64,000 nt of DNA from positions 1-64,000 of the forward strand of contig CANFOS010000009.1 of NCBI GenBank assembly GCA_947448735.1, in the 5' to 3' direction. Position numbers and translations under genes: made by a program. Of this stretch, positions 34,313 through 52,644 are shown one piece after another (within the stretch, counting starts at the first letter, position 1; each line of letters opens with the position of its first letter). The DNA comes from Comamonadaceae bacterium. GTDB taxonomy: Bacteria > Pseudomonadota > Gammaproteobacteria > Burkholderiales > Burkholderiaceae_C. The notes beneath the pieces were generated by a model. The model made no database searches and was not told where the DNA came from. It saw only the letters and a list, made by a program, of their open reading frames with translations.

Positions 34313-35194
34313 TTAACGATGAGCGAGGAAGTCAAGGACCAGTCGATTAAACCTTTCTGCGTGTTCCCACTGTGCCCAGTGCCCGCACTGGCTAAACACA
34401 TGCAGCTGTGCATCCTTAAGACCGGCAAGTAATCGCAGACCGGTGTCGAGGGGAACAAATCTGTCGTCTCGCCCCCAAACAATCAATGCGGACGAATTGA
34501 TTTCTCCCAGACGATGGGCGATGTCTGGAAACTGTTTTGGATTGGCCGTGGAGCTTTCGACAAAATTTTTAAGATGGTCCTGACGTTGGAGCATGCCGTC
34601 GAGCCGGGCTTGGAAGAGCTCATCCGTCAGATGACTCGGGTCATAAACAAACACACTCATCATGCGCTTGAGGTTTTCTATGGTCGGCGCGCGATAGAGC
34701 GCACCAATAAGCTTGATGCCCTCAGTTGGCATGGGTGCAAACAAGCTTGGACCACCTCCTGTCCCGCCACCCATCAAAACCAGCTTGCCCACCCTGTTTC
34801 CATGAGCCAAGGCGAAAGCAACCGATGAATGGGCACCCATTGAGTTACCGACGAGGTGAGCCTTTTCTATGCCTAGCGCGTCCATTAAACCCAGCAGCGC
34901 GGCCGCGTTCAGATCTGACCTTGACCCCGTGCAGACGATCGGATCACTCTTGCTCCAGCCGGGGACGTCCAGCAGGATGACCCGATAACCGGCTGCAACA
35001 AAGGGCTCAACGTTTCGATTGAAGTTTGCCCAGCCGCTCGCGCCAGGACCAGAACCGTGAAGCATCACCACAACTTCTGCAAAGGCGTCACCACCTGTGT
35101 CGTTGTAGTGCAGCTGCGTGTGGACACCGTTTAGGTCGACACGTACAAACTTGCTGGTGTTTGCTTCAGAAATGATGGTTTCTTCGGTTGGCAT
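34313..35194 (-). CDS. meta-cleavage-product (C-C bond) hydrolase, BphD/MhpC/HsaD type
   Basis: 293-residue alpha/beta hydrolase. The oxyanion segment [10 protein letters not shown] and nucleophile elbow V-G-N-S-M-G (Ser), with acid Asp in G-R-D-D-R-F-V-P and His in C-G-H-W-A-Q-W-E-H, match enzymes that hydrolyse 2-hydroxy-6-oxo-dienoates formed by extradiol ring cleavage. The start follows AAGGAAATAA. It is the last gene of a leftward run that also encodes the ring hydroxylase and extradiol dioxygenase, consistent with the third step of that route. Confidence 0.88.
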
Positions 35195-35237: not shown

Positions 35238-36209
35238 CTATGAGGGCAAACGGATGTCGAAGTATTCCTTCACCAGCCGCAACGAGGTCTCAGGACTGCG
35301 TGCCCTGAGTGCCACAACTATTTCCCGCCTTGCCTTGACGAGCTCGGGTTTGTAGCGGTTGGCTTCAGAAAGCAGCAGATGACCCATGATGGTCGTCAAC
35401 GATTCAGCAACCGTGCTCAGCACTTCGTTGTGCGCGGTGGCACCCAGGTGCCGAAAAAACTCCTGCGCTGCCTGATAGCGGTCCTGAACCCGGCCTTCAA
35501 GATGGAGGTGCTCCATCGATCGTACGCAGGCTTCCATCGCATCAAAATCCTCATCGTAGCCGTTCGTGGCTGCGAGCCGTGCGAGCTCGCCGTAGATGAG
35601 AACAGCGGCGTCACGAAGCATGGCCTCGGTCAGGCGGCCGGATAAAGCTAAATCCCTGAGCGAGCGCGACAAGGCAACGTAGGCGCCACGATGAAACACC
35701 AGTGCTTCACTGGTGCCGACTTGGTCGAACCGCTCCACCTGTCCTATGAACACGACATGGTCACCAATGACATGTTCGGCAAACAGGCGACACTCAAACC
35801 GGGCACTTGAGGACTCGATAAGCGGCACGCCCAGTGTGCCGTTGCCGTAAGAAACGCCTTCGAACTTGTTGCTTATTGAAGAACTCGCAAACCTGGTTGA
35901 CAAATCCTTCTGTGCATCAGAAAGAACATTGATGGCAAAACGCCTGGACGCCCTGAAGACTTCAACGAGGCGGCTTTGTATCCGAATACTCCACAGCACA
36001 AGGGGCGGGTCAAGGGAAACCGAGCTGAACGAATTGCACGTCAATCCAATCGGCTGGCCATGCCCGTCAACAGTGGTCATGATCGCCACCCCGGTTGGAA
36101 AAAATCCAAGCGCGACCCTGAATGCCTTCGCATCAAATGCCACGGGGGTCAAGGCAGGGTTCGGGTCGGTGATTTCGCTTTGAGTGAAAGTGTTTACTGT
36201 GGCGGTCAA
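35238..36209 (-). CDS. flavin reductase with C-terminal FCD-like helical domain
   Basis: 323 residues. The N-terminal about 170 residues are an HpaC-like flavin reductase (F-P-T-G-V-A-I-M-T-T, L-T-C-N-S-F-S-S-V-S-L-D-P-P-L-V, then F-x-G-Q-V-E-R). The remaining about 140 residues are all-helical and resemble the FCD ligand-binding domain of GntR regulators (F-F-R-H-L-G-A-T-A-H-N-E-V-L, with a C-terminal K-A-R-R-E-I-V-V-A-L). The start is a TTG at 36209 preceded by AGGAA; no closer ATG keeps the domain whole. It should supply reduced FAD/FMN to the HpaB-type oxygenase of this cluster, and the extra domain may sense substrate. Confidence 0.8.
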   Translation of the reverse strand: MTATVNTFTQSEITDPNPALTPVAFDAKAFRVALGFFPTGVAIMTTVDGHGQPIGLTCNSFSSVSLDPPLVLWSIRIQSRLVEVFRASRRFAINVLSDAQKDLSTRFASSSISNKFEGVSYGNGTLGVPLIESSSARFECRLFAEHVIGDHVVFIGQVERFDQVGTSEALVFHRGAYVALSRSLRDLALSGRLTEAMLRDAAVLIYGELARLAATNGYDEDFDAMEACVRSMEHLHLEGRVQDRYQAAQEFFRHLGATAHNEVLSTVAESLTTIMGHLLLSEANRYKPELVKARREIVVALRARSPETSLRLVKEYFDIRLPS

Positions 36210-36270: not shown

Positions 36271-37263
36271 CTATGCCAGAACTTGCGGATTCAACAAATG
36301 CTGGGGGGTACCGCGAAGATAGGCAGCCAGCGCATCGACAGTACCCTCATAAAAACGGCGAAAAGTATCCTGTGTGACATAACCTGCGTGCGGGGTGAGC
36401 ACAACGTTATCCATTCCGAGGAAAGTATGTCCTAACGGTAGGGGTTCTGTCTCAAAAACGTCCAGCCCGGCGCCGGCGAGCCGGCCTTCGGCAAGCATGC
36501 GGATCAGAGCCTGCTCATCGACGATCGGCCCTCTGGACGTGTTGATGAAGATGGCTGTGTGCTTCATCCTCCGCAGATCTGTCTCGGCCACCAGATGGCG
36601 TGAACGCTCCCCAAGAACCATATGCAGACTCAGCACGTCACTGCTGGAAAAAAGCGTGTCTCTTGGCACCCATTGCACCCCATGCTGCAAGGCCAGCGCT
36701 TCAGTCAAATTAGGGCTCCACGCGATGACTTTCATGCCAAAAGCTAGGCCGTAGAAGGCCACCCGCTGACCCAATTTTCCCAGGCCCAGGATACCGAGCG
36801 TTTTTCCATGCAACTCAAAGCCGGGACGCTTCTCCCATTTGCCCTGCCTGACCTGCCTGTCGTAGCAAGGGATACGGCGCGCCACGGCGAGGATCAATCC
36901 CCAGGCAAGTTCGGGTGTTCCATAGCTTGGTGGCTCTCCGTGCGAGGCGTGGGACACCGCGATCCCCCGCGCTGTCGCCGCGTCCAGGTCAAGCGTCCGG
37001 TGGGTTTTTCCCGTCACGGTCATAAATTTGAGCCGTGGAAGCCTGTCGATAAGTGATGCAGGCATGGCCATACGTTCACGCAGGTGGCAAAGCACGTCAT
37101 AGCCTTTAAGAACCCGTGCAGCTTCATCTGGTACCTCCAGCTTGCGATCCAGAAAGTCGATGGTGCATTGACCGGTGAGGACTTGCCAGTCCGCGTATTG
37201 CCGGGCCACGCCTTCATAGTCGTCCAGCACCGCAACTCGCGGAAGGGTTCGATCAGAAGGCAA
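36271..37263 (-). CDS. D-isomer-specific 2-hydroxyacid dehydrogenase
   Basis: 330-residue NAD(P)-dependent dehydrogenase. The Rossmann motif G-I-L-G-L-G-K-L-G, the catalytic Arg in I-N-T-S-R-G-P-I-V-D, Glu in F-E-T-E-P-L-P and His in L-T-P-H-A-G are conserved. It starts at a TTG (37263) with GGAGG six bases upstream. It should interconvert a 2-keto acid and a D-2-hydroxy acid, perhaps handling a side product of the aromatic route. Its substrate cannot be deduced. Confidence 0.88.
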   Translation of the reverse strand: MPSDRTLPRVAVLDDYEGVARQYADWQVLTGQCTIDFLDRKLEVPDEAARVLKGYDVLCHLRERMAMPASLIDRLPRLKFMTVTGKTHRTLDLDAATARGIAVSHASHGEPPSYGTPELAWGLILAVARRIPCYDRQVRQGKWEKRPGFELHGKTLGILGLGKLGQRVAFYGLAFGMKVIAWSPNLTEALALQHGVQWVPRDTLFSSSDVLSLHMVLGERSRHLVAETDLRRMKHTAIFINTSRGPIVDEQALIRMLAEGRLAGAGLDVFETEPLPLGHTFLGMDNVVLTPHAGYVTQDTFRRFYEGTVDALAAYLRGTPQHLLNPQVLA

Positions 37264-37322: not shown

Positions 37323-38306
37323 TCAGTCGATCACGGAATGACTGAAGTTCCAGTGAACAGGCTCAACACCCTGCACCTTCGCAGCCCACATCGTTAACGA
37401 GTCTCTTCCCATACTGCCGATATAAGCCTGCAATCGCCCAGGACCACCGAAGGCAATGCTGGCAATGTTGCCGAGTTGCGCCGACTGGCCGACGGCAATA
37501 TCGCTCCAGCCCATGCAGCCAGATTGGTAATTTTCTTCGGCTTTCGCAAGCAGGCCGATGTCGCAGTCTTCGAACTGGATTTCCGTGCTCCCATCGGGCC
37601 GCACCATGACAAGACGGTTGCTAACAACACTGGTTACCCATGCGTTTCCCTGAACATCAAATTCAAAGCCATCGGGCCAGATGCCAGTGCCGAAAGTGCA
37701 GACCGTTTCACGGTTCGAAAGCTTTGCGTCACGGCCAATTTCAAAGCGGGTCATGCGGCGGGCAAAGGTCTCAGTCACATACAGCCATTTGCCGCCCGGA
37801 TGCACCCGCACTTCGTTCGGAAATGAAAGACCTTCTGCGCAAATACGTATGGCGCCACTGGGCTCTATGATCCCGATGGCGCCGTCAGCAACGTTCTTGT
37901 TAAATGCCTTATCCCTGGGCTTGGAAGTCGTCGTCAAGGCAAACCAAGTTCGCCCGATATGGTCGCAATTTACAAAACCCAAAGGTGTCTCGGGGAACGC
38001 ATGGCCGGCCTTGACGAAAGGCACCAGTTCGCCAGGCGCTACCAATCGCCACAGGCCTCCGCGCGGGCCGACGTTGGCGATCAGAAAGGTGCCGTCTTTT
38101 AGCAGGGAGATACCGTTGGGTACGAACTCAGGTGGCGGTGACTCGATGTCTTGATTGCGGCTGGGTTCAGGCAGGACACGCACCACACCTTTGGCCTTGT
38201 CTGATGCATAGACCCTGCCGTCTTTCAGAGCGAGAACAGACTCGGGGCGGTTCAAGCCACTGCCGACGCTTGAGGTACTTAAAGCGGTAAGCATGCGTGC
38301 GCCCAT
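37323..38306 (-). CDS. SMP-30/gluconolactonase-like beta-propeller hydrolase
   Basis: About 327 residues from the ATG at 38306 (38294 is a second choice; the open frame to 38360 would overlap the upstream gene). The metal-binding Glu lies in R-P-E-S-V-L-A, and E-V-R-V-H-P-G-G-K-W-L-Y-V-T-E-T and I-W-P-D-G-F-E-F-D mark propeller blades. Family members hydrolyse sugar or aromatic lactones; in an aromatic cluster, lactone opening is plausible. It lies about 10 bp after the CMD-family gene and is part of the same leftward run. Confidence 0.82.
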   Translation of the reverse strand: MGARMLTALSTSSVGSGLNRPESVLALKDGRVYASDKAKGVVRVLPEPSRNQDIESPPPEFVPNGISLLKDGTFLIANVGPRGGLWRLVAPGELVPFVKAGHAFPETPLGFVNCDHIGRTWFALTTTSKPRDKAFNKNVADGAIGIIEPSGAIRICAEGLSFPNEVRVHPGGKWLYVTETFARRMTRFEIGRDAKLSNRETVCTFGTGIWPDGFEFDVQGNAWVTSVVSNRLVMVRPDGSTEIQFEDCDIGLLAKAEENYQSGCMGWSDIAVGQSAQLGNIASIAFGGPGRLQAYIGSMGRDSLTMWAAKVQGVEPVHWNFSHSVID

Positions 38307-38316
38307 GGGTGCATGA

Positions 38317-38889
38317 CTAGAGCGGAATATTTGACTCAGTACCAGCAGGCGCAGGTACATCGTAAAAGTTAAGTGTCATGGCGATCATGGTGTAAAGACC
38401 AATAAGACCAATCAGGTCTGACACGCCCTTGTGGCCGATGGAGGCCAGGGCACGCTGGTGCAGATCTTCAGGCAGCTTTCCCTGACCGTGCAGAGCGACG
38501 GCAAGTTCATAGGTGAGGTTTTCAAGCGGTTCCTCAAAAAAGCCAGGGGCCTGTCTTGCAGCGATGGCAGCGATCTGTTCTACCGTGATACCGGCTTTTT
38601 GAGCGTGGCCCTGATGCATGTGCCATTCGAATTCAGCTTTCCAATGAAGCGCTCCAGTCAGCACGACAATTTCTTTTTGTCGCTTGGTGATTGGTGCGAG
38701 CGAGGACACATACAACCCAAACGGCTCAGCCACATCGACAAAGTCTGGATTGTGAAGCCAGACGCGAAGGTTGATCGGCAGGCGGCCACGGGGACCTTCT
38801 TCGATGCGCTTGACGATGGCTTGTTGCCTTGGTGTGCGCTCTTCAGGAGCGATCTCGACAAACCTTGATTTTTTAGGGGCAGTTGACAT
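38317..38889 (-). CDS. carboxymuconolactone decarboxylase (CMD) family protein
   Basis: 190-residue all-helical protein of the CMD/AhpD superfamily. The segment E-W-H-M-H-Q-G-H carries the family histidine but no C-x-x-C redox pair, so an AhpD-like peroxidase role is unlikely. Similar proteins often sit in aromatic clusters beside true decarboxylases, without proven activity. The ATG follows AAGGAT. Pairing with the adjacent SMP-30 protein suggests that the two act on consecutive lactone-type intermediates, which is inference. Confidence 0.82.
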   Translation of the reverse strand: MSTAPKKSRFVEIAPEERTPRQQAIVKRIEEGPRGRLPINLRVWLHNPDFVDVAEPFGLYVSSLAPITKRQKEIVVLTGALHWKAEFEWHMHQGHAQKAGITVEQIAAIAARQAPGFFEEPLENLTYELAVALHGQGKLPEDLHQRALASIGHKGVSDLIGLIGLYTMIAMTLNFYDVPAPAGTESNIPL

Positions 38890-38927: not shown

Positions 38928-39896
38928 TCAGGAACCCAAACTGCCGGCATCGGGATATAACGGCGCGGTAATACCGTGGTTGAGGGCAAACTCGCGCTGT
39001 ACGTCGGCAGCCTTGCGCGCTTCGGGGCTGGCACCTATGCGGTCATGGCCCCACAGGCTGGGCCCGAAGACGTTCGACACCGTCCAGGTTGCATCATCAA
39101 CGATGCGGCCACCCCAGCCGTATTCGATCGGGAACCCGCCCGGCGTCTGGATGTAGAACGACGTCATGTGATCATTTGAATGGCGCCCCAGGGTTGAGAA
39201 AATGGCACCGGGGTATTCAGCCAGCGCAATGTCATAGGCTCGGCCTAGGTCATCGAACTCTTTGACCTCAAACATCAGGTGCGCAATGCCGAAGCCCTGC
39301 CTTTCCGACAAGGCAATCGAATGGTGGCGGCCGTTGGTGTGCATGAAGACACGGCGGTTCGGTTCCAACAGGTAGTCAGAGACCCTGAAGCCCAACACAT
39401 CGCAGTAGAAGTCGCGCGATTTATCAAGGTCGGGCACCACCAGCACCGCATGGCCGAAGCCCAAGTCACCGGTTCGGAACCCTTTCATGGGTCTGGCCGG
39501 CACGAAGGGCTCTGGATCGTTTTGCAAGCTGTGAAACAGCTCCAGCCGGTAGCCTGCCGGCTCCCTGAAATGCAGCATGCCACCGACCTGCCTGAGGGCC
39601 AACTCTGCGGGCGTTGCGTCCTCCACCGCCATGCCATGGGCTTCAAGCTCGCGCTTGGCTTCAGCAAGCGCGGAGGCATCTTCAAGCTCAAACCCGAAAA
39701 AGGCATTGCCTTCGATGCCAGCTTCTAACAACAACAGCCGGTGGCATTTTTCGTCAAGCCGCAGCGCCAGCACTTTCTGGTCATCTGGCGTGGTGCGATG
39801 CGTTACATGGCAGGCCAGCAGGCGCTTGGCAAACCTTTCCCACTCGGCGAGCGGGCTGACCTCGACACCAACATAGCCAATTGACTTGATGTCCAT
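38928..39896 (-). CDS. type I extradiol ring-cleavage dioxygenase (BphC/HsaC-like)
   Basis: 322-residue two-domain VOC-fold dioxygenase that opens a catechol next to its hydroxyls using Fe(II). The iron ligands can be placed in the C-terminal domain: His at about 153 (G-F-G-H-A-V-L-V-V), His at about 216 (G-I-A-H-L-M-F-E-V) and Glu at about 266 (P-I-E-Y-G-W-G-G-R). Length and ligand spacing fit 2,3-dihydroxybiphenyl-type enzymes. It starts 6 bp after the monooxygenase stop, so the two are translated together. Expected product is a 2-hydroxy-6-oxo-dienoate, the substrate type for the hydrolase at the end of the run. Confidence 0.9.
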   Translation of the reverse strand: MDIKSIGYVGVEVSPLAEWERFAKRLLACHVTHRTTPDDQKVLALRLDEKCHRLLLLEAGIEGNAFFGFELEDASALAEAKRELEAHGMAVEDATPAELALRQVGGMLHFREPAGYRLELFHSLQNDPEPFVPARPMKGFRTGDLGFGHAVLVVPDLDKSRDFYCDVLGFRVSDYLLEPNRRVFMHTNGRHHSIALSERQGFGIAHLMFEVKEFDDLGRAYDIALAEYPGAIFSTLGRHSNDHMTSFYIQTPGGFPIEYGWGGRIVDDATWTVSNVFGPSLWGHDRIGASPEARKAADVQREFALNHGITAPLYPDAGSLGS

Positions 39897-39902
39897 GGCG
39901 CC

Positions 39903-41399
39903 TTAGGCTGCCAGGGCCATCTTTGGAGCCTGCAACTTCAAGAGGATATCTTGGCTGGTCGACTCGATGGCGCGCGCCACCAGGCCCTCACAAACCGACT
40001 TGTCGTAATTCATGAAAAGCCCCGCCATGTTACGTACAGGGTCGCCCTGGTGGTATCGCTCGTACTGCACCTGGCGCGAACCAAAGGCGTCACCACAAAT
40101 GTCCCACGCCATCTTGAAAAGGCGTATGCGTTTTTCGGCGTCGACACCGGTTGCACCTTGGTAATACTTTTCGATATCTGTGGAGATAGGGCTGTGGAAG
40201 TCTTCCATCGACGGCATCATCTGCATGCCACCGGCTCCCACGGTCTGCAATATTTCGATGATGCGCGAATAAAAACGTGACGTTAGCATGCGGCCAGTGT
40301 TGACTGCCAGCAGCGGCGGCTTGATCGTTCCGCCGAAGCCGGGTTCGCATTCGGCAATAGCACGGACCAGGCAACTCTTCATGAGTTCGACATAGTGCAC
40401 GCATTCGCCGACCATCTGCTGCACATGCAGAAACTTCTCGGAACCGTTGGCCTTGACGACCTCCATCAACAAGCCGACCACAAACTCGAGCTTGACGAGG
40501 CCACGAACGGCGGCCTGGTGACTGGAATGATTTTTGCCGGTGTTACGCGCGTGAAAATCATTGATGACGGGAACATTGTTATGCGCAAAGACGCGTTTCC
40601 ATGGGACCAAAACATCGTCAAAAATAATCAGCGTGTCGCTGTCTTCAAAGTTTGCGGCCATAGGGTGGTTAGCGGCCAGACGAGTGCCGTCGTCGTAGGG
40701 CTCCCGGCATATTTGCCGGATGCCGGGCGTAGCAATTGGCATCGCAAAAACAAAAAGGTAATTGGAGTCTTCTGGCTTCTGGTTCGCCATGCTGTAAATC
40801 AGTACTTCGTCGGCAATCGGACCCATTGTTGCAAGCATGCGCGCGCCGCGCACGATCAAACCTTCTGACGTCTCACGCACCACACCCAGATGAAGAAATT
40901 CGTCGGCTTGACCTGCGGAGTTTTTGGATCGGTCGTTTTGCGGCGTGATGATGGCATGGGTCAAAAACACATCGTTGTCTCGCACATAGTTGGCGTATTC
41001 GCGCAGGTTGTTCGCGAAGTCTCCTCCAAGCGGCTCAAGCAGCTCGGAAGACTCTGCAAAACCGTGAAGCACACTGCCTAGAAAGTCAGGCGACCGGCCC
41101 ATCATTCCCAAAGTCGGCTCTGCCATGACGCGGTATGCAGCCGCGCGTTTGGCGATGTCCTCTTTTGTCTTGCAAGGCAGGTAGGAGGTACCAACAAGAT
41201 CGCCGCCTGGGGTTCTCCAGGTCAGCACATCCCGATGCACCGGGTCATGTTGTAAGTCAAACAGACCGGCCGTGTGCGCAAGCGGCCTTGCAAATGCAGG
41301 GTGTGTTGTGACGTCCGCCACACGCTCGCCACGCAGCCAGACTTCACGTGTGCCCTTGCGAAGGCCCTGAATATATTCCTTACCAGTCCTGATTCCCAT
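39903..41399 (-). CDS. HpaB-type FADH2-dependent aromatic monooxygenase
   Basis: 498-residue oxygenase of the 4-hydroxyphenylacetate 3-hydroxylase (HpaB/PvcC) family, acyl-CoA-dehydrogenase fold. Characteristic pieces are the start R-T-G-K-E-Y-I-Q-G-L, the flavin-binding region L-T-H-A-I-I-T-P-Q-N-D-R, and V-P-W-K-R-V-F-A-H-N. It needs reduced flavin, probably supplied by the reductase gene in the same run, and should add a hydroxyl ortho to a phenol to give a catechol. The ATG follows CAGGAG. Directly upstream is a promoter overlapped by a 36 bp inverted repeat shared with two neighbouring units. Confidence 0.92.
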   Translation of the reverse strand: MGIRTGKEYIQGLRKGTREVWLRGERVADVTTHPAFARPLAHTAGLFDLQHDPVHRDVLTWRTPGGDLVGTSYLPCKTKEDIAKRAAAYRVMAEPTLGMMGRSPDFLGSVLHGFAESSELLEPLGGDFANNLREYANYVRDNDVFLTHAIITPQNDRSKNSAGQADEFLHLGVVRETSEGLIVRGARMLATMGPIADEVLIYSMANQKPEDSNYLFVFAMPIATPGIRQICREPYDDGTRLAANHPMAANFEDSDTLIIFDDVLVPWKRVFAHNNVPVINDFHARNTGKNHSSHQAAVRGLVKLEFVVGLLMEVVKANGSEKFLHVQQMVGECVHYVELMKSCLVRAIAECEPGFGGTIKPPLLAVNTGRMLTSRFYSRIIEILQTVGAGGMQMMPSMEDFHSPISTDIEKYYQGATGVDAEKRIRLFKMAWDICGDAFGSRQVQYERYHQGDPVRNMAGLFMNYDKSVCEGLVARAIESTSQDILLKLQAPKMALAA

Positions 41400-41433
41400 A
41401 TCGCACTCCTGATCGGCAAATACAAAATTTAAG

Positions 41434-41469
41434 ATTGCATTATACGAACGTTGTTATCGTATGTGCAAT
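41434..41469 (-). promoter_or_regulatory. 36 bp inverted-repeat operator, site 1, over the monooxygenase promoter
   Basis: ATTGCA at 41434-41439 and TGCAAT at 41464-41469, 24 bp apart. Beyond these, TCGTAT is repeated in inverted form further inside. On the minus strand it contains TTGCAC, an 18 bp spacer and TATAAT, a good sigma-70 promoter pointing at the gene starting at 41399. Proposed target of the IclR regulator nearby. Confidence 0.7.
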
Positions 41470-41533
41470 ACAAAAAGTCAAAAAAATGATCGCCTGAACC
41501 GGGGCCGTAGGCGGTAATACAAATGGCGGCGCA

Positions 41534-42511
41534 TTACTCGAGCACCATGTTGAGGCTTTTAACGAAGCTTCCCCATTTCTGGTTTTCCTGCCTCACAAAC
41601 GCGGCAAAATGATCGGGCGTGTCGACAATCACACTGAGCCCTTGGGCCTCCATCTGCGATTTGATCGCGGGGCTGTTAAAACCTTTTGCACACTCTGCCT
41701 GCAACGCGTTCACGATGGCTGGCGGGAGATTGGCGGGACCAAACAGGCCCTGCCAATTGGTGACGTCAAACCCTTTGACGGTTTCTGAAATGGACGGTAC
41801 GTCTGGCAGCAAAGCTGTACGCGTTTTTTCCGTCATACCCAAAATGCGGATCTTTCCTGCTTTGTGAAACGGCAATGCGGTTGACAAAGTGACATACCCA
41901 ACCGGAACCTGTCCGCCAACCAGGTCGACCGCAGCTGGAGCGCCGCCCTTGTACGGCACATGCACCATGTTGATTCCGGCGAGCTGGCATAACAATGCGC
42001 CAGCGATGTGATGCGGCGAGCCAATGCCCGAACTTGCGTAGCCCAATTTGCCTGAATTGGCCTTGGCATAAGCGATTAGCTCAGGTATTGAATTGGCCGG
42101 AACTGACGGATGCACGGCAATGGTCATCAGCGGTGCAATCAGCGCGCAGATGGGCGTGAAGTCCTTGATGGCGTCATAGGGCATGCGTGTGTAGAGAAAT
42201 GAATTGATGGCGTGAGTTGCGATGTTCCCCACCACCAGCGAATAACCGTCCGGCGCGGATTTAGCCACTGCGTCGGCCCCAATGTTGCCTGTTGCTCCAG
42301 CGCGGTTGTCCAAAACCACGGGCTGCCCCAGCCCGGCAGAGATGGACTGGGCCGCCGCGCGGCCGATAGCGTCTGTCGGACCGCCTGCAGGAAAAGGTAT
42401 GACCAGCCGTATTGGTCGCGATGGGTATGACTGCGCATGCACATGGGTCGCACCAAAACCAATCGCGAGGCCGGCGGTGCCACACAGGACTTGTCGGCGT
42501 GAGAGTTCCAT
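41534..42511 (-). CDS. Bug-family periplasmic substrate-binding protein (TTT/TctC type)
   Basis: 325 residues from the ATG at 42511, which follows AGGAGATCAG. A twin-arginine-like start (L-S-R-R-Q-V-L) and hydrophobic stretch end near H-V-H-A-Q. The mature domain has the family features: P-x-R-P-I-R-L-V-I-P-F-x-A-G-G, V-V-x-D-N-R-x-G-A-x-G-N-I-G, and H-V-P-Y-K-G-G. Bug proteins bind carboxylates for tripartite transport, but no TctA/TctB membrane genes lie in the window, so it must use distant permeases or serve in sensing. It belongs to cluster 1 and has its own upstream 36 bp operator. Confidence 0.9.
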   Translation of the reverse strand: MELSRRQVLCGTAGLAIGFGATHVHAQSYPSRPIRLVIPFPAGGPTDAIGRAAAQSISAGLGQPVVLDNRAGATGNIGADAVAKSAPDGYSLVVGNIATHAINSFLYTRMPYDAIKDFTPICALIAPLMTIAVHPSVPANSIPELIAYAKANSGKLGYASSGIGSPHHIAGALLCQLAGINMVHVPYKGGAPAAVDLVGGQVPVGYVTLSTALPFHKAGKIRILGMTEKTRTALLPDVPSISETVKGFDVTNWQGLFGPANLPPAIVNALQAECAKGFNSPAIKSQMEAQGLSVIVDTPDHFAAFVRQENQKWGSFVKSLNMVLE

Positions 42512-42527
42512 CTGATCTCCTAAACTT

Positions 42528-42563
42528 ATTGCACTACGGGATATCCAATCCTTATTATGCAAT
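42528..42563 (-). promoter_or_regulatory. 36 bp inverted-repeat operator, site 2, upstream of the Bug gene
   Basis: ATTGCA at 42528-42533 and TGCAAT at 42558-42563, same length and arms as sites 1 and 3. It lies 17 bp before the Bug gene start. The leftward promoter inside it is weaker (TTGCAT, 18 bp, CGTAGT), while the plus strand shows TTGCAC, 18 bp, TATTAT. Confidence 0.6.
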
Positions 42564-42663
42564 TCGCAGATAGCATTCGCGTATTAGTAATTACGCCAGT
42601 CCCGACTTTCGATGAGAGCGATGAGAAGTAAATACAGCCCCCCCGTCAGGGAAACGGACTTTC

Positions 42664-43485
42664 TTACTGAACACGGGGGCGCTTCGGGGAAGATGCCTCT
42701 TTTTCATGAGGTGCCCGGTACCCAAGCAGCACGGAGGCCCTGGCTGCGGCGGCTTTTACGGCTCTGGCGACATTGCCGTCATAGGACGTATCAAAAGCGT
42801 TGGCAAGGCCAACTGAAGACAGCGTCAGCGCCAGTTTGCCCGTCGCGTCAAAAATCGGCGCCCCCAAGGCGTTGATACCGCTGACGCGAATACCGAGCGA
42901 ACGGCCAAGGCCGTGACGCCTTACTTCTTCTTTTAACGAGTTAACCTCATTAAGCGAGATCAACTCCGTCTCTTTTCGCGCACGGCGTAAGCGAAGTTCT
43001 GTCGCCAGCAAGGCCCGTGTGCGCTCTTCTGCTTCATAAGCCAGAAAGATGCGACCGCTTGCGCTAACCAGCAGAGGTGAGCGACTGCCGGTCTTGATGT
43101 TTACCGTCACTGGCTGACTCGCATCCATCCATCGAATCATCACCGGCCCATCGGGCGTCCAAACGGCCAGCGTCACTGGAAGATCAATTTCTTCAAGCAA
43201 CTCCGCCATGACTTTCGTAGCGACGGCGATGGCGTCCATCCGGACCATGGCAGCCAGACCCAACTGAAGCGCAAAAGGCCCGAGATCGTAATGCCCGGTT
43301 TCGGCTTGTTGCGTCACGAGGTTTGCCCTTGCAAAACTCACCATATAGCGATGGGTGTTGCTGGCTGTCATGTCGGCGGATTGCGCAATCTGCTTTAAGC
43401 TCATCGCGTGATTTGATTTTGCGAGCGCCACCAAAACGCGCATAGCCGCGTCTACTGACTGGATGCCTTGTTGCTTGTCGTTCAT
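42664..43485 (-). CDS. IclR family transcriptional regulator
   Basis: 273 residues. The N-terminal winged helix-turn-helix (about 8-65, with S-L-K-Q-I-A-Q-S-A-D-M-T-A-S-N-T-H-R-Y) is followed by the IclR effector domain (about 80-260), including T-L-A-V-W-T-P-D-G-P and I-R-V-S-G-I-N-A-L-G-A-P-I-F-D. IclR proteins of catabolic clusters usually bind an aromatic acid or ring-cleavage intermediate. The gene lies between two leftward units and one rightward unit that share a 36 bp operator, making it their likely regulator. No copy of that operator is evident at its own start. Confidence 0.92.
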   Translation of the reverse strand: MNDKQQGIQSVDAAMRVLVALAKSNHAMSLKQIAQSADMTASNTHRYMVSFARANLVTQQAETGHYDLGPFALQLGLAAMVRMDAIAVATKVMAELLEEIDLPVTLAVWTPDGPVMIRWMDASQPVTVNIKTGSRSPLLVSASGRIFLAYEAEERTRALLATELRLRRARKETELISLNEVNSLKEEVRRHGLGRSLGIRVSGINALGAPIFDATGKLALTLSSVGLANAFDTSYDGNVARAVKAAAARASVLLGYRAPHEKEASSPKRPRVQ

Positions 43486-43682
43486 GCTTGTTGACGTGGA
43501 AGTTGAAGAAGTTCAAACGCTTTGCACCTGCGTTTGTAAAGCCGTATTAGACGACAACTTGTTTTCGGTTGGCGCTTCAGGACATGGCTGACTTCCACGC
43601 CCAACCTAAACACAAAATCCCGGCCATCCCGTACGAGATCAATCTTCAATCGTTAGTAGTAACCCCAAAAAGCGCCACCATA

Positions 43683-43718
43683 ATTGCACATATCATTATT
43701 CACTGCACATTATGCAAT
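43683..43718 (+). promoter_or_regulatory. 36 bp inverted-repeat operator, site 3, over the rightward promoter
   Basis: ATTGCA at 43683-43688 and TGCAAT at 43713-43718. On the plus strand TTGCAC (43684-43689), an 18 bp spacer and CATTAT (43708-43713) form a promoter for the gene starting at 43757. The promoter sits at the same position inside the repeat as in site 1. The rest of the 43486-43756 gap shows no gene. Confidence 0.7.
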
Positions 43719-43756
43719 TACAAGTGTGGTGCTGACGGTATCGCTCGGGAGGCAAT

Positions 43757-44926
43757 TTGTCGAGTTCTGAAGTTTCAATCTGGCCAAAAAATGTTCAGCT
43801 TGGCGTGGGCAGCGTTGCCCGCTTACCAGTGCTGATGCGTTCATACGGCTGCAATCGTGCGATGGTTATTTGCGGCCAAAGCGTTGCCAGCGGCCCGATG
43901 CTTGAGTCCGTCCGAAACGCACTTGGCCCCCTTTATGCGGGCGTTTTTGCAGAGGTCCGCTCGCACACGCCGTTACCAGACGTTCAGCGTGCCGCTGAGC
44001 TATGCATGGACCTTCATGCCGATACGGTCATTTCAGTGGGAGGCGGTAGCGCGATTGATGCAGCAAAGGGTGTCATCATTTGCTGCGCGGCGGGAGGAGA
44101 CCCACGGCCCTACGCCATGGGACCGAGGAGCGAAGGCGGCAAGACCAAGCCCATGCCCATTTCAAAAATCAGGCATATCGCCGTCCCAACAACTGCTGGC
44201 TCAGGTAGCGATGTCATGCCTTCAGCGGGCATCCGTGACCCATCCATCGGCAAAAAGATACTCTTCTGGGATCAGGGGCTGATACCCGATGCAACCGTGC
44301 TTGACCCGCAGATGGCTGTTTATGCAGGAGGGTTTCTGACAGCAGCCAGCGGCATGACCGCTGTCGCACGTGCGATGGAATCCATTTATTCGAAGCACCG
44401 CAACCAGATTTCCACCGGCTTAGCGCTGCATGCCTTGCGGCTTTTGAACCGGGCCCTTCCTCTGTCTGTGAATGAACCCAACAACCTGCAGGCCCGGCAG
44501 GATTGCCAAGTTGCTTGCATTTTGGCCAGTACCGCTGCTGTCAATGCGATGGCCTCTGTCGTGCATGCCATAGGCCATGTGGTTGGCGGCAGGTTCCAGC
44601 TGCAGCATGGCGTGTCACATGCCATCCTGTTAGCGCCCATAGCCCGGCGTTATGTGCCCCTGCTGGGCGACGACGTGACAACCGTGCTTCAGGCTTTCGG
44701 TTATGACGGGACAGAGTCAGTTGCCAGTCCGGGCGAGCTGATCGCAACTGCGCTGGAGAGACTACACGCCTGCCTTCCACTACCCAAACGCTTGCGCGAA
44801 CTTGGACTGACCGAGGCAGACATACCCGTGATTGCCGAAAGCACCCTCGAGCAACACATGCTAGACAACGTCCCTCGCCCCACACCGCTTGTGGAGATTC
44901 AGCAAATCCTTGAGGAAGCCTGGTGA
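43757..44926 (+). CDS. iron-containing alcohol dehydrogenase/maleylacetate reductase homologue lacking two metal ligands
   Basis: 389 residues. The nucleotide-binding motif S-V-G-G-G-S-A-I-D and A-V-P-T-T-A-G-S-G-S-D are intact. At the usual metal site the Asp and His of G-M-D-A-x-x-H-A are Thr201 and Arg205 here (S-G-M-T-A-V-A-R-A), while the downstream histidines (H-A-I-G-H, then L-Q-H-G-V-S-H) remain. Maleylacetate reductases also diverge at this site, usually keeping the His. The start is a TTG at 43757 with GGGAGG ideally spaced. The stop overlaps the next gene by GTGA. It probably reduces a keto or unsaturated acid; metal dependence is doubtful. Confidence 0.83.
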   Translation: MSSSEVSIWPKNVQLGVGSVARLPVLMRSYGCNRAMVICGQSVASGPMLESVRNALGPLYAGVFAEVRSHTPLPDVQRAAELCMDLHADTVISVGGGSAIDAAKGVIICCAAGGDPRPYAMGPRSEGGKTKPMPISKIRHIAVPTTAGSGSDVMPSAGIRDPSIGKKILFWDQGLIPDATVLDPQMAVYAGGFLTAASGMTAVARAMESIYSKHRNQISTGLALHALRLLNRALPLSVNEPNNLQARQDCQVACILASTAAVNAMASVVHAIGHVVGGRFQLQHGVSHAILLAPIARRYVPLLGDDVTTVLQAFGYDGTESVASPGELIATALERLHACLPLPKRLRELGLTEADIPVIAESTLEQHMLDNVPRPTPLVEIQQILEEAW

Positions 44927-46305
44927 TACAGTCGACAGCTGCCAAGGACACATCTGCGCTCTGCGGCTGGGCGGCGGGGCTCCACTGGAGCGATATACCT
45001 GCCGCAGTACAAGGCCGGTTTCCGGCACGTCTGCTGGACACTGCTGGGCTGGCTTTGGTAGGCGCAACAACAGCGGCTGGTAAAGCTGTGACAGCCACTG
45101 CATCACCGCAATCAGAGCCACAGGAAAGCACCGTTGCCGGCAGCAACGCCCGCTCTCCGGCAAGCATCGCTGCTTTGATCAATGGCACGCTAGCCCACTG
45201 CCGCGACTTCGACGATACCCACCCGCAATCGCTGGTGCACCCGGGAAGCGTGGTCATTCCTACCGCGCTGGCCATTGCGGAAAGTAGTGGGGCTGACAAT
45301 GAGGATTTCGCGGCGGCCATCGTGGCGGGTTACGAAGTGGCTGCGCGAATGGGCCTTGTGGCGGGCAAGGGCCTGATGGCGAGGGGCTTTCATGCAACCA
45401 GCGTGATCGGGCCGGTGGCTGCCGCAGTCACTGCAAGCCGGCTGATGCGGCTGGACAGCGGCCAGATGGCCAGCGCTATTGGCCTGGCTTGCAGCATGTC
45501 TGGTGGATTGATGGCCTTCATGAATGATGGCAGCTGGTCCAAATGGCTGCACGCCGGCTGGGCGGCTCAAGGCGGCATTCAGGCGGCTGTTCTGGCAAGG
45601 TCAGGGTTTCGAGGACCAGTCGATGCCTTGCTGGGAAAAAACGGGCTTTACGACGCCTTCGTGGGCCACGATAGCAGCCGTCAAGCCTCGGCCCTGCGCG
45701 AAGGCTTTGGTGATGAGTGGCACGAAGCCAGTGTGCTGTTCAAGTATTACCCCTGCGCGCACGTCATACAGCCTTACATAGACACCGCAGCGTCCATCGT
45801 CAACGATAACGGCATTGACCTCAACGATATCGCTGCCGTCACCTGCGATATGGCGCCCTTTGCCGCTCATGTGATAGCCCTGCCTCGGGAAGCCAAGCTC
45901 AAGGTGGCGACAGAAATGGACGCCATTTCCAGTCTGCCGTTTCTGTTGGCTGCACACCTGCTCGATGGCGAAGTGACCCTGAAAACACTTTCTGCTGATT
46001 CACGTTCAAGACAGGACATCCACACACTGGCGCAAAAAATAATTCACCGGACAAATGACAGTCTGACCACCGGCTTTGACGGCCTGGTAGAAGTCAGGAT
46101 CCATTCCGGTCGAATTTATAGCCTAGCCGCATTAGACCAAGCCAATGATGACGCGCGTGTCCTTAAAAAGTTTGAAGCGAATCTGGCCTTTGCCAATCCT
46201 CGCAATGAAATAGCGTCATACAGGCTCGGGCAGCGAGTGTTGGGCGATGCCCTCCCTGACTGGCACGTCGTTAGGGACATCCTGGCAACTTCCCTAGAAA
46301 CCTGA
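44923..46305 (+). CDS. MmgE/PrpD family protein
   Basis: 460 residues, starting at a GTG that overlaps the previous stop by 4 bp, so translation is coupled. The MmgE/PrpD fold is recognised from S-P-A-S-I-A-A-L-I-N-G-T-L-A-H-C-R-D-F-D-D in its N-terminal third and F-K-Y-Y-P-C-A-H-V-I-Q-P near the middle. Relatives include 2-methylcitrate and cis-aconitate-type dehydratases, so dehydration or isomerisation of a tricarboxylic or hydroxy-dicarboxylic acid is the best guess. Its pairing with a maleylacetate-reductase homologue suggests a small acid-processing branch. Confidence 0.88.
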   Translation: MIQSTAAKDTSALCGWAAGLHWSDIPAAVQGRFPARLLDTAGLALVGATTAAGKAVTATASPQSEPQESTVAGSNARSPASIAALINGTLAHCRDFDDTHPQSLVHPGSVVIPTALAIAESSGADNEDFAAAIVAGYEVAARMGLVAGKGLMARGFHATSVIGPVAAAVTASRLMRLDSGQMASAIGLACSMSGGLMAFMNDGSWSKWLHAGWAAQGGIQAAVLARSGFRGPVDALLGKNGLYDAFVGHDSSRQASALREGFGDEWHEASVLFKYYPCAHVIQPYIDTAASIVNDNGIDLNDIAAVTCDMAPFAAHVIALPREAKLKVATEMDAISSLPFLLAAHLLDGEVTLKTLSADSRSRQDIHTLAQKIIHRTNDSLTTGFDGLVEVRIHSGRIYSLAALDQANDDARVLKKFEANLAFANPRNEIASYRLGQRVLGDALPDWHVVRDILATSLET

Positions 46306-46348: not shown

Positions 46349-47359
46349 ATGAACACTAAAAGCAATCCCCCCCCTATCACCACCGGCTTATCCAGAAGGT
46401 CGATTCTCGCCCTTACTGCTGCGGCAAGCTTGCCCTCCACGAGGCTCATGGCAGCCGATTCACCAGCGCGTACACAGCCTTTGAAAATCATCGTCGCAAC
46501 TGCACCGGGCGGCGTTCCCGACATATTGGCGCGAACCATAGGACAGCAGATCACGCAGACGACTGGGAGACCAGTCGTTGTGGAGAATCGGCTAGGGGCT
46601 GCTGGCGCCATTGCTGCCAACACTGTGCTTGGCTCTCCAGCAGACGGCAGTGTTGTTGCTATGGTCGAAAGCAGTGCCTATTCAATGATCCCGCATCTCG
46701 GGAAGATCAGTCCATTCAGCGAACTCGCGCCTGTTGGATTGGCGGCGGTGGCTCCCATTTACTTGTGTGTGAGCCCGCAATTGGGAGTAAGCACCCTGCC
46801 TGAGTTCGTCGCGTATGCAAAGGCCAACCCAGGTTTGCCCTACGGCTCGTCGGGAAACGGCTCGTGGCATCACGTTGGAATGGAGCTGTTCAAATCCCGT
46901 GCAGGTGTCGACATGACCCACGTACCCTACAAAGGCGCCGGTCAAACTGTCGTCGCTTTAATAGGCGGTGAGATCAAGGTAGCGTTTTTGGGATACAGCA
47001 CGGCTATGCCGCAGTCGGCTGCAGGCAAACTGAAGATCCTCGCCATAGGGTCTTCCTCCAGAAGCATCCTGACCCCAGACATACCGACCGTTTTGGAGGC
47101 AGGCGGCCCAAAGTCTGACATGCGCATGTCTGCGTTGTTCCTCTTTGCCAACCCTAAAACGCCATCCAGCGAAATAGATTTCCTGAACCGCCAATTTGCG
47201 CTTGCAACGGGTGCGCCAGCCGTACAGACAAAGCTTGCTCAGATGGGTATCGAAAGCGCAGACGGAAAGCTGTCAGCCAGGCAGTTCTCAACAATGGCCA
47301 AGGAAGAGCATGCTTTTTATGGCTCGATTTTGAAAACACTCAACATCAGGCTTGAATAG
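46349..47359 (+). CDS. Bug-family periplasmic substrate-binding protein
   Basis: 336 residues from the ATG at 46349, chosen because GAGGCAACC precedes it; the open frame begins at a TTG at 46325. A twin-arginine-like signal (S-R-R-S-I-L-A-L) ends near L-M-A-A. Mature features include L-K-I-I-V-A-T-A-P-G-G, V-V-V-E-N-R-L-G-A-A-G and H-V-P-Y-K-G-A-G-Q. It is last in the rightward unit of cluster 1. It is distinct in sequence from the Bug protein at 41.5-42.5 kb, so the two probably bind different acids. Confidence 0.88.
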   Translation: MNTKSNPPPITTGLSRRSILALTAAASLPSTRLMAADSPARTQPLKIIVATAPGGVPDILARTIGQQITQTTGRPVVVENRLGAAGAIAANTVLGSPADGSVVAMVESSAYSMIPHLGKISPFSELAPVGLAAVAPIYLCVSPQLGVSTLPEFVAYAKANPGLPYGSSGNGSWHHVGMELFKSRAGVDMTHVPYKGAGQTVVALIGGEIKVAFLGYSTAMPQSAAGKLKILAIGSSSRSILTPDIPTVLEAGGPKSDMRMSALFLFANPKTPSSEIDFLNRQFALATGAPAVQTKLAQMGIESADGKLSARQFSTMAKEEHAFYGSILKTLNIRLE

Positions 47360-48117: not shown

Positions 48118-48906
48118 TCAGATGAAGCGGCAAGAAACGCTGCCCAGAGCGCCGACCGAGGCCTGGACCAGATCGCCAGCGGCCACGGGAACCATCGGGC
48201 CGAGCGCGCCCGACAGGATCACCTGGCCCTGGCGCAAGCCCTGACCACGGGCGGCCATGGTGCAGGCGAGCCAGAAGGCGGCCCGCAGCGGATGGCCGAG
48301 GCAGGCCGCGCCGCTGCCGGTCGAGACAGTCTGACCGTTCTTGTCCATCTGCATGCCGATGGCGCCGAGCGACAGCCCGCCGATCGGCACCGGCTGGTCG
48401 CCCAGCACATAAAGCCCCGAAGAGGCGTTGTCAGCCACGGTATCGACCAAGGTGATTTTCCAATCAGTAATGGCGCTGTCGACGATCTCGATTGCTGGCA
48501 GGGCATAGCTCAGGCAAGCCAGGAATTCGGAGTAGCTCGGCGCGCTGCCAGGGACATCCCGACCTACAACGAAGGCGATCTCGGCTTCCACCTTGGGCTG
48601 CAGCAGTCGGGCGGTAGGTACGTCTTGCCCGTTGAGAAATTCCATGTCGTCGAAAAGCACGCCAAAGTCTGGCTGGTCCACGCCCAGTTGCTGCTGGACA
48701 GCCTTTGAGGTCAGGCCCACCTTCAAGCCGACGACTCGGCGGCCGGATTCCAGCCGGGCGCGCGTGTTTACCTCGGCGACTGCGTAAGCCGCATCGAGAC
48801 TGGCGATGCCGTGGCTGGTAGACACCGGCGGGATGCTGCGTCGGTTTGCCCTTGCAAGCGCAAGCGCCTGGGCTGCCTGCTGGATAGCTTCTGATTGATG
48901 GGACAT
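48118..48906 (-). CDS. 2-keto-4-pentenoate hydratase (MhpD/DmpE family)
   Basis: 262 residues from the ATG at 48906, preceded by AAGGAGAAT. The enzyme adds water to 2-hydroxypenta-2,4-dienoate to give 4-hydroxy-2-oxovalerate. Family features include G-L-K-V-G-L-T-S-K-A-V-Q, E-A-E-I-A-F-V-V-G-R-D (metal ligands), and A-I-E-I-V-D-S. Its natural followers, the aldolase and acetaldehyde dehydrogenase, are absent apart from a relic of the latter at 47.5 kb. Last gene of the leftward arm of cluster 2. Confidence 0.92.
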   Translation of the reverse strand: MSHQSEAIQQAAQALALARANRRSIPPVSTSHGIASLDAAYAVAEVNTRARLESGRRVVGLKVGLTSKAVQQQLGVDQPDFGVLFDDMEFLNGQDVPTARLLQPKVEAEIAFVVGRDVPGSAPSYSEFLACLSYALPAIEIVDSAITDWKITLVDTVADNASSGLYVLGDQPVPIGGLSLGAIGMQMDKNGQTVSTGSGAACLGHPLRAAFWLACTMAARGQGLRQGQVILSGALGPMVPVAAGDLVQASVGALGSVSCRFI

Positions 48907-48935
48907 GGGGATTCTCCTTGGGTCGTGAAAGGGGA

Positions 48936-49970
48936 TCAAGCGCTGTCTCGGCCAAGCCAGCGCAGCGCATTGTCCTGGCGCAGCAGACGGCGAGTCGCAT
49001 CGTCCAAGGTCAGTTGGTCGATACGGCGGGCCGGCTCGCGGTCCATGATTGCGAATGGGTAGTCGGTACCGGCCAGCACCTGCGTCGTGCCGAAGACCTG
49101 CAGCAAGATGCGGATGGTGTCGGCGTCGTACACCAAGTCGTCGACGAACAGTTGCCGAACCAGCTCGCGCGGTGACTGGTCCATGAGCTTGCGAATCGGC
49201 GGCAATTGTTGCCAGCCGTGCTGTAGGCGCGGCAGCAGCATCGCCAACGAGCCGCCCCCATGGCTAAAGGCAATGCGCAGCTTCGGTAGCCGCGCCAGTG
49301 TCCCGGACGTGAGCAGCGAGGCGGCGGCCAGGCCGACTTCGCCGGGAAAGGCCAGCACCTGTTCAAGCAGTGGCGGGCCGACCAGCCGGTCCATGCCCGC
49401 AGGTCGCAAGGCATGGACGAAAATGGCAGCGCCAAGCGATTGGGCGGCAGCAAAGAAAGGCTCATGGTCGGCGTGACCAAGCGGTTTGCCATTGATATTG
49501 CTGCCGAGCTCTACACCCGCCAGCCCCAGTTTCATGCAGCGTTCCAGCTCGCCAATGGCCAGTTCCACATCCTGCAGCGGCACTGCGCCCAAACCGGTGA
49601 AGTGCGCTGGGTCGGCACTGACCATTGCCGCCAATTCCTCATTCATAAAAGAATTAAGCGACAGCGCGTCGTCGGCTGCCAGCCAGTAAGACAGCAGCTC
49701 CGGCATCGGCGATACCACTTGGTGCGTGACGCCCGTAGGCGTCATTTCCTGCAGCCTACGGCCGGCGTCCCAGCTTGAGTCGGGCACGGTGCGGTAGATA
49801 CGTCCCTCGAGCATCACGTTGCGGTCGCAGGCTGCGTCACCCGGTACCATCGATGGCCAAGCGACGCTTTTGCGTTGGCCCACGTAGGCCGGAAACTGGT
49901 GGGGAACCCAGTGGGTGTGGGCGTCGACCAGGCCGCAATCGCAGCCAGTGCTTTGAAATGCGGCGGTCAT
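48936..49970 (-). CDS. amidohydrolase family decarboxylase (ACMSD-like)
   Basis: 344 residues from the ATG at 49970, which overlaps the ferredoxin stop (ATGA). The N-terminal metal motif D-A-H-T-H, a middle His (F-V-H-A-L-R-P), F-S-H-G-G-G and the Asp in G-T-D-Y-P-F are arranged as in 2-amino-3-carboxymuconate-6-semialdehyde decarboxylase and gamma-resorcylate decarboxylase. In this setting it should remove a ring-derived carboxylate after extradiol cleavage, preparing the intermediate for the alpha/beta hydrolase. The exact substrate is unknown. Confidence 0.87.
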   Translation of the reverse strand: MTAAFQSTGCDCGLVDAHTHWVPHQFPAYVGQRKSVAWPSMVPGDAACDRNVMLEGRIYRTVPDSSWDAGRRLQEMTPTGVTHQVVSPMPELLSYWLAADDALSLNSFMNEELAAMVSADPAHFTGLGAVPLQDVELAIGELERCMKLGLAGVELGSNINGKPLGHADHEPFFAAAQSLGAAIFVHALRPAGMDRLVGPPLLEQVLAFPGEVGLAAASLLTSGTLARLPKLRIAFSHGGGSLAMLLPRLQHGWQQLPPIRKLMDQSPRELVRQLFVDDLVYDADTIRILLQVFGTTQVLAGTDYPFAIMDREPARRIDQLTLDDATRRLLRQDNALRWLGRDSA

Positions 49971-50317
49971 GCTTTTAACTCGGCGACCAGCGATGCTTCC
50001 GACAGCATCACTTGGCCGTCGCGGATCTCCACTGGGTAGGTGCGCAGGGCTTGAGTGCACGGTGGGCCGACGGCCTTGCCAGTGCGCACATCAAAGGTGC
50101 CTAAGTGCATCCCGCATTCGACGATGTGGCCCTCCAGGCAACCATCCTCGGTCAGTGAGGAGTTGCCGTGGGTACAGCGGTCATCGGTGGCATACACGTT
50201 GCCCTCCACCAGATAGACGGCCACGCGGCGGCCGTCCGGCAGGCAGCCCATACCGATGTCGCCGTTCGCCACAGAATCCAGGCTGCAAAGGGGAATGAAA
50301 TGGCTGTTAATTGTCAT
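49967..50317 (-). CDS. Rieske [2Fe-2S] ferredoxin component
   Basis: 116-residue soluble ferredoxin. Cluster ligands Cys48 and His50 (C-T-H-G) and Cys68 and His71 (C-G-M-H) are intact. It should carry electrons from the adjacent FAD reductase to the Rieske dioxygenase encoded on the rightward arm. The ATG follows GAGAGGACA. It overlaps the amidohydrolase gene by 4 bp. Confidence 0.93.
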   Translation of the reverse strand: MTINSHFIPLCSLDSVANGDIGMGCLPDGRRVAVYLVEGNVYATDDRCTHGNSSLTEDGCLEGHIVECGMHLGTFDVRTGKAVGPPCTQALRTYPVEIRDGQVMLSEASLVAELKA

Positions 50318-50330
50318 GATGAATGTCCTC

Positions 50331-52630: not shown

Positions 52631-52644
52631 AGATGCTTCCAAGC

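Follow-up and report, generated by a model that had tools for sequence, protein, structure and literature searches.

The stretch of DNA analysed in this work, 64,000 nucleotides from a Comamonadaceae bacterium and hereafter called the window, carries a cluster of catabolic and uptake genes around one IclR-family regulator gene, with three copies of a 36-bp inverted repeat among them. The features are as follows, the functions resting on Pfam and NCBIfam scans:

34313-35194, minus strand, alpha/beta hydrolase (Pfam/NCBIfam)
35238-36209, minus strand, flavin reductase with an FCD domain (Pfam)
36271-37263, minus strand, hydroxyacid dehydrogenase (Pfam/NCBIfam)
37323-38360, minus strand, SMP-30-like protein (Pfam/NCBIfam)
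38317-38889, minus strand, CMD-like protein (below the Pfam cut-off)
38928-39896, minus strand, extradiol dioxygenase (Pfam/NCBIfam)
39903-41399, minus strand, HpaB-type flavin-dependent monooxygenase, first gene behind site 1 (Pfam HpaB_N, HpaB)
41434-41469, minus strand, site 1, exact ATTGCA-N24-TGCAAT, upstream of the HpaB-type gene
41534-42511, minus strand, TctC-type substrate-binding protein, behind site 2 (Pfam TctC, 5.9e-67)
42528-42563, plus strand, site 2, exact ATTGCA-N24-TGCAAT, 17 bp upstream of the TctC start
42637-42655, minus strand, terminator-like hairpin
42664-43485, minus strand, IclR-family regulator of 273 aa with recognition helix MTASNTHRYMVSF (Pfam HTH_IclR 4.6e-10, IclR_C 1e-20)
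43683-43718, plus strand, site 3, exact ATTGCA-N24-TGCAAT, between iclR and the divergent Fe-ADH gene
43757-44926, plus strand, Fe-ADH with a TTG start, first gene behind site 3 (Pfam)
44923-46305, plus strand, MmgE/PrpD (Pfam)
46349-47359, plus strand, second TctC (Pfam)

The regulator scores well above the Pfam cut-offs of both IclR domains (HTH_IclR 39.5 bits against 22, IclR_C 74.4 bits against 24), no NCBIfam equivalog recognises it at its own cut-off, and it is the only protein with a DNA-binding domain among those of the stretch scanned with Pfam. The HpaB-type protein reaches 453 bits against NCBIfam HpaB-1, under the cut-off of 480, and no named NCBIfam model was reached at cut-off by the proteins of the cluster. 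Judging by gene spacing, the HpaB-type gene and the genes downstream of it to 34313 probably form one operon, and Fe-ADH, MmgE/PrpD and the second TctC another. As a whole the cluster suggests a pathway for cleaving the ring of a phenol-type compound, uptake included, and the most frequent target of IclR regulators is aromatic catabolism (PMC8222616). In the product of 35238-36209 the flavin reductase domain is followed by FCD, the ligand-binding domain of GntR regulators, with no DNA-binding domain among the Pfam hits, and this protein may be a ligand-controlled reductase subunit. A second catabolic run lies on the minus strand at 48118-52642 (FAA hydrolase, amidohydrolase, FAD/NAD reductase and LigB-type dioxygenase) and has no exact copy of the repeat.

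The initial annotation had proposed that three copies of ATTGCA-N24-TGCAAT, each preceding a different transcription unit around the one IclR gene, are very unlikely to have arisen by chance. A scan of the sequence finds all three to be exact and no further copy in the 64-kb window, and the predicted gene starts bear out the arrangement: sites 1, 2 and 3 have their centres 52, 34 and 56 bp ahead of the HpaB-type, TctC and Fe-ADH genes, whose starts are at 41399, 42511 and 43757 (TTG), respectively. Not one exact copy occurred in 100 dinucleotide shuffles of the window, and base composition predicts about 6e-5 exact copies per 2.3 kb, or 0.10 per genome; chance is excluded for the exact arms. 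When gaps of 0 to 60 were tried across 41301-43800, exact arms paired at a gap of 24 alone, and six of the seven ATTGCA/TGCAAT boxes in this region are arms of the three sites, the seventh (42134) lying inside the TctC gene. With up to two mismatches, the pattern occurs five times in the window against 5.0 expected by chance, so that only exact copies count as evidence. The 24-base interiors differ among the three sites.

The pattern is nearly confined to the IclR cluster within its own genome as well. The genome-wide scan that the initial annotation had called for found four exact places in the 3.83-Mb assembly, namely the three window sites and one more (C29:28972), which was rejected as a member of the regulon, as it lies inside a 250-aa open frame resembling, by eye, an IS21 helper gene. 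Places with one mismatch number 12 in the assembly, against about 4 expected from the base composition of the window. Exact and one-mismatch places outside the window come to 13, of which 12 have a locus, and 9 of these 12 lie inside stop-to-stop frames of at least 90 codons. The stricter form ATTGCAY-N22-RTGCAAT was searched in 299 family genomes including this one; three copies are found here, six of the other 298 genomes have a single one, and no genome but this one has more. Two of these six single matches were read in context, and neither was retained: that at L056 (1501-1536), ATTGCATACATATTCAATTCGATGTATACATGCAAT, is a longer self-similar palindrome near what by eye is a GntR-type regulator gene, and that at L055 (1501-1536), ATTGCATTTTATGCGTTAAAAATGCAATAATGCAAT, lies between genes that by eye are TctC-like and aconitase-like, with no iclR seen in either stretch.

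The regulator itself is rare. Beyond the window, no close orthologue was found in the genus at E 1e-60 (61 genomes) or 1e-62 (87 genomes), nor at 1e-70 in 399 order or 369 class genomes, and a query with its database relative P0003 at 1e-75 retrieved, from 384 family genomes, the window's own protein alone, the larger of these searches having scored only some 6-8 candidates per genome. None of the genus, family, order or class samples yielded an orthologous cluster. Of 299 family genomes, 159 have a match at 1e-40 or better, the best besides the window being 43-44% identical. In the protein database there are near-identical copies (P0001, 99%; P0002, 97%) and a group at 53-68% identity (P0003-P0036), which includes homologues of 65-68%, P0003 and P0017 among them, that have the recognition helix in common with the window protein; the helix SNTHRY is found in 32 of the 36 closest proteins (SNNHRY in one of them), the script having recognised no helix in the other four. 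An IclR search of genome contigs gave five loci, the best 33% identical; plasmid records held nothing at 60% identity or above, and viral contigs gave no match.

The layout of the sites was therefore compared in more distant relatives. Sixty-nine relatives of 36-44% identity (29 loci and 40 further stretches) were searched upstream of iclR, the ATT prefix and the gap of 24 having been taken from the window. At gap 24, 22 of the 69 have inverted arms starting with ATT (one mismatch allowed), and the other gaps between 10 and 40 give 0 to 4 each, whereas a scan with any arm allowed was saturated (55-67 of 69 at every gap) and uninformative. The relatives' operator reads ATTACG-N24-CGWAAT, with arms ATTACG and CGTAAT or CGAAAT; it is found with at most one mismatch in 28 of the 69 and with at most two in 42 (38 distinct), being absent at that tolerance from the other 27. 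These relatives are largely orthologues of one another and therefore do not count as independent events. Even so, the operator carries 1.37 bits per column against 0.12-0.18 in its flanks, which indicates that it is kept and its surroundings are not; its rows were picked by the 12 arm columns, and the 24 inner columns, on which there was no selection, are conserved as well. In locus L042 the operator, ATTACGCATTGTTAAAT-GA-ATTTACCTAAACGTAAT, lies between iclR and a divergent FAA-hydrolase-type gene, and the same class of operator is present at L033, L037 and L041. Each of ten genomes, chosen because the site had been met in most of them, carries a copy beside iclR; the loose form RTTACG-N24-YRWAAT matches 25 times in the ten against 20 for a reversed control, so that matches away from iclR are at chance level. 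The genome of the window also encodes a paralogue with an element of this kind, GTTACGATAAGTGAAATTGATTTACCTAAATGTAAT, at C20:30223-30258.

The ATTGCA form itself was not found among the 69 relatives (two mismatches at best in one of them, three to five in the others), and a scan of 35 loci for the window's box came no closer than shuffles, the window excepted. A conserved 17-mer near the iclR genes of relatives, of the type GTCGCATAATGSGC, resembles the right half of site 3, and it was dropped as evidence because its flanks are equally conserved and because in L042 it coincides with the beginning of the FAA-hydrolase-type coding sequence.

In the relatives the operator can be read as two palindromes of 7-3-7 form, one spanning positions 1-17 and the other 20-36, which puts 19 bp between their centres, as in the tandem IclR sites described in PMC8222616, whose centres are 18-22 nt apart (mainly 19-21) and whose boxes are of the WTT-11-AAW type. 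By their length of 36 bp the window sites would fit the same 17+2+17 division and the same 19-bp distance, but their inner boxes are weak; the only good half-palindrome among them is the right half of site 3, which on the minus strand (ATTGCAT-AAT-GTGCAGT) is a near-perfect 17-bp 7-3-7 palindrome. Scored with the relatives' matrix against shuffles, the interiors of the window sites score better at p 0.004 (positions 8-29) and 0.03 (positions 11-26), and direct tests of the inner boxes give p 0.007-0.02 at the expected gap, with similar values at unexpected offsets too. The outer box ATTGCAY agrees with the half-site WTTYCRY at six of seven positions, with a G at position 4.

Compared with the group 1 tandem operators of Suvorova and Gelfand (2021), as PMC8222616 describes them, the window sites have a length that would fit paired 7-3-7 palindromes with centres 19 bp apart, a box close to WTTYCRY and a similar proximity to gene starts, their centres (52, 34 and 56 bp before the predicted starts) falling within the -20 to -80 range of that group; they differ in having G for Y at box position 4 and degenerate inner boxes, only the outer boxes being conserved. 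With the operators of the 36-44% relatives they share the 36 bp, the 6-N24-6 layout and the place beside iclR, but those operators have ATTACG, strong inner boxes and a regulator with MSAAKAHRY, as opposed to ATTGCA, weak inner boxes and MTASNTHRY in the window. TphR of Comamonas, whose box TTTTTGCGCATAGCGCAAAAA is listed in PMC8222616, has a WTTGCRY half-site, the 7-3-7 form and the same deviation to G at position 4, and PMC9888244 has it regulating aromatic acid catabolism with a TctC-type uptake protein; its operator, however, is a single palindrome with a strong inner half, and it is likened here by box and pathway. TtgV (PDB 2xro, 2xrn) is an IclR-family member for which tetrameric DNA binding is reported (PMC8222616), and it aligns to the window regulator at 1.3e-08; it is distant in sequence, and the likeness is drawn from the protein. 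The core motif of PheR, GCAACG in PMC13273656, is different from the window box. Literature searches turned up no published account of an ATTGCA-N24-TGCAAT operator, which is not proof of absence, and the ATTGCAC met in PMC9888244 stands in primers. The window sites look like a member of the known class of tandem IclR operators in which ATTGCA has taken the place of ATTACG as the outer box, the recognition helix differs and the inner boxes are weak.

The recognition helix changes along with the box, being MTASNTHRY in the window protein and its group and mostly MSAAKAHRY in the relatives with the operator. In an alignment with TtgV the changed residues include positions matching TtgV 48, 49 and 50, and Ser48 and Thr49 of TtgV contact DNA directly (PMC8222616). 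The change in the helix fits, without proving, the change from ATTACG to ATTGCA.

Within the sites, promoter-like hexamers overlap the arms:

site 1, minus strand, TTGCAC 41468-41463 and TATAAT 41444-41439, pointing at the HpaB-type gene
site 2, plus strand, TTGCAC 42529-42534 and TATTAT 42553-42558, pointing away from the TctC gene
site 3, plus strand, TTGCAC 43684-43689 and CATTAT 43708-43713, pointing at Fe-ADH

The earlier claim of a TTGCAC and a TATAAT-like box 18 bp apart, overlapping the arms and facing the gene, holds for sites 1 and 3 as far as the letters go, but reading them as promoters fares less well: promoter-like matches in 41300-43850 are at chance level (two found against 1.9 expected from shuffles), and site 2 is reversed. 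There TTGCAC-N18-TATTAT, which the initial annotation did not mention, stands on the opposite-facing strand, and since this pair faces away from tctC, the element should be at least partly an operator consensus rather than a promoter. TTGCAC is poor as a -35 box, and no good -35 for tctC was seen on its own strand. A weak promoter-like match on the iclR strand, TTGTAA-17-AATAAT (43723 to 43695), overlaps site 3 and bears on a possible control of iclR by its own product. The hairpin at 42637-42655, directly after the end of iclR and ahead of site 2, would separate the transcription of iclR from that of tctC.

The three elements are probably operators of the neighbouring IclR protein, of tandem form, which would be bound by a tetramer and would keep the genes repressed until an aromatic inducer is present. 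The small IclR regulon with 36-bp operators proposed at the outset is supported by the same 6-N24-6 layout beside the iclR of distant relatives, by the near-confinement of the ATTGCA form to this cluster in its own genome and by a box close to the published IclR half-site in the variant listed for TphR. Each site would consist of two 17-bp IclR sites of 7-3-7 form with centres 19 bp, or about two turns, apart, and the tetramer would therefore bind one face of the DNA, the ATTGCA/TGCAAT arms being the two outer boxes and the inner boxes being weak. Bound at sites 1 and 3, the protein would lie across the stretch from -35 to -10 and shut off both the HpaB-type genes for ring cleavage and the Fe-ADH genes; from site 2, immediately ahead of the TctC start codon, it would govern that uptake protein, and an aromatic inducer would release it. 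The three matched sites, and sites of the same shape beside the iclR of many distant relatives, make an ordinary, well-defined switch for aromatic breakdown the most likely interpretation. Counted against this reading are the 27 relatives without such a site, the kinship of the 69 among themselves, the absence of the ATTGCA form from them, their strong inner boxes as compared with the weak ones of the window, and the position of site 3 about 200 bp from the start of iclR, whereas the relatives' sites are near their iclR starts.

It is tempting to go further, if only tentatively. The IclR protein might rely chiefly on the pair of outer boxes, which are 30 bp apart, so that a single strong half-site would hold each dimer of the tetramer, and the changes from SAAKAHRY to TASNTHRY and from ATTACG to ATTGCA might together insulate it from the paralogue with the same layout; in addition, the promoter-like part of site 2 faces the end of iclR and could give rise to an antisense transcript under the same control. 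This extension seems to us a good deal less probable than the operator function itself.

That the protein, bound to the three sites, works as an activator or in a dual role and brings polymerase to weak promoters instead of blocking it appears unlikely, yet this has more in its favour than the other alternatives. Activators and dual regulators do exist among IclR proteins (PMC8222616), the closest NCBIfam model, though well under its cut-off, is BhcR, which PMC11323563 gives as an activator in Paracoccus, and the TTGCAC -35 boxes are poor, with no good one seen for tctC on its own strand; on the other hand, a protein sitting on site 1 or 3 would as a rule be in the way of polymerase, both hexamers falling within these sites. 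Operators of some regulator other than the neighbouring IclR are an improbable explanation. Further regulators are encoded elsewhere in the genome, the box form of the window is missing from the IclR relatives and binding by IclR is a prediction, but exactly the same 36-bp layout stands beside the relatives' own iclR genes, the box is near the IclR half-site, and this stretch offers, among its Pfam-scanned proteins, no other with a DNA-binding domain.

Least probable is that the repeats are not operators at all; they would then be due to chance, to a promoter that was duplicated or to promoter elements with a fortuitous symmetry. In favour of this, the three sites agree in register, each with TTGCAC 18 bp from a TATAAT-like box. 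Exact arms in three places exclude chance, however, a recent duplication should have preserved the interiors, which differ, a promoter needs no inverted repeat, and site 2 faces away from its gene. The set of operators is taken as real, and so, in all likelihood, is the IclR regulon, of a kind already known but with an altered box.

In that case the sites provide a probable operator, with its regulon, for a group of IclR proteins for which literature searches showed none, and, together with the paralogue, a natural specificity pair, that is, two IclR regulators in one genome with the same 36-bp layout and different outer boxes and helices. If confirmed, the operator would point to the genes of one phenol-type catabolic pathway with its uptake, and, if the insulation suggested above is true, a two-box operator with a specificity switch would separate two paralogous regulators in one cell.

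Some other elements met in the course of this work deserve mention. Five plasmid relatives were read, three of which showed nothing convincing; the remaining two are single cases and were not counted as evidence. At L099, on a Pseudosulfitobacter plasmid, ATTGCGTAATGCGCAAT is a near-perfect 7-3-7 palindrome 219 bp before the IclR gene, between it and a benzoate-CoA ligase gene, and at L101, in Cupriavidus with an HPY-type helix, TATCTA-N24-TAGATA has exact arms 117 bp before the IclR frame and may be due to chance. Among the relatives' genomes, a further similar element, ATTACGCATTRGTAAATGCGTTATGATTAGTGAAAT, occurs at G113:C2:89910 and G207:C67:40709, with a more distant form at G064:C27:27047, and these second elements are possible extra sites of their regulons.
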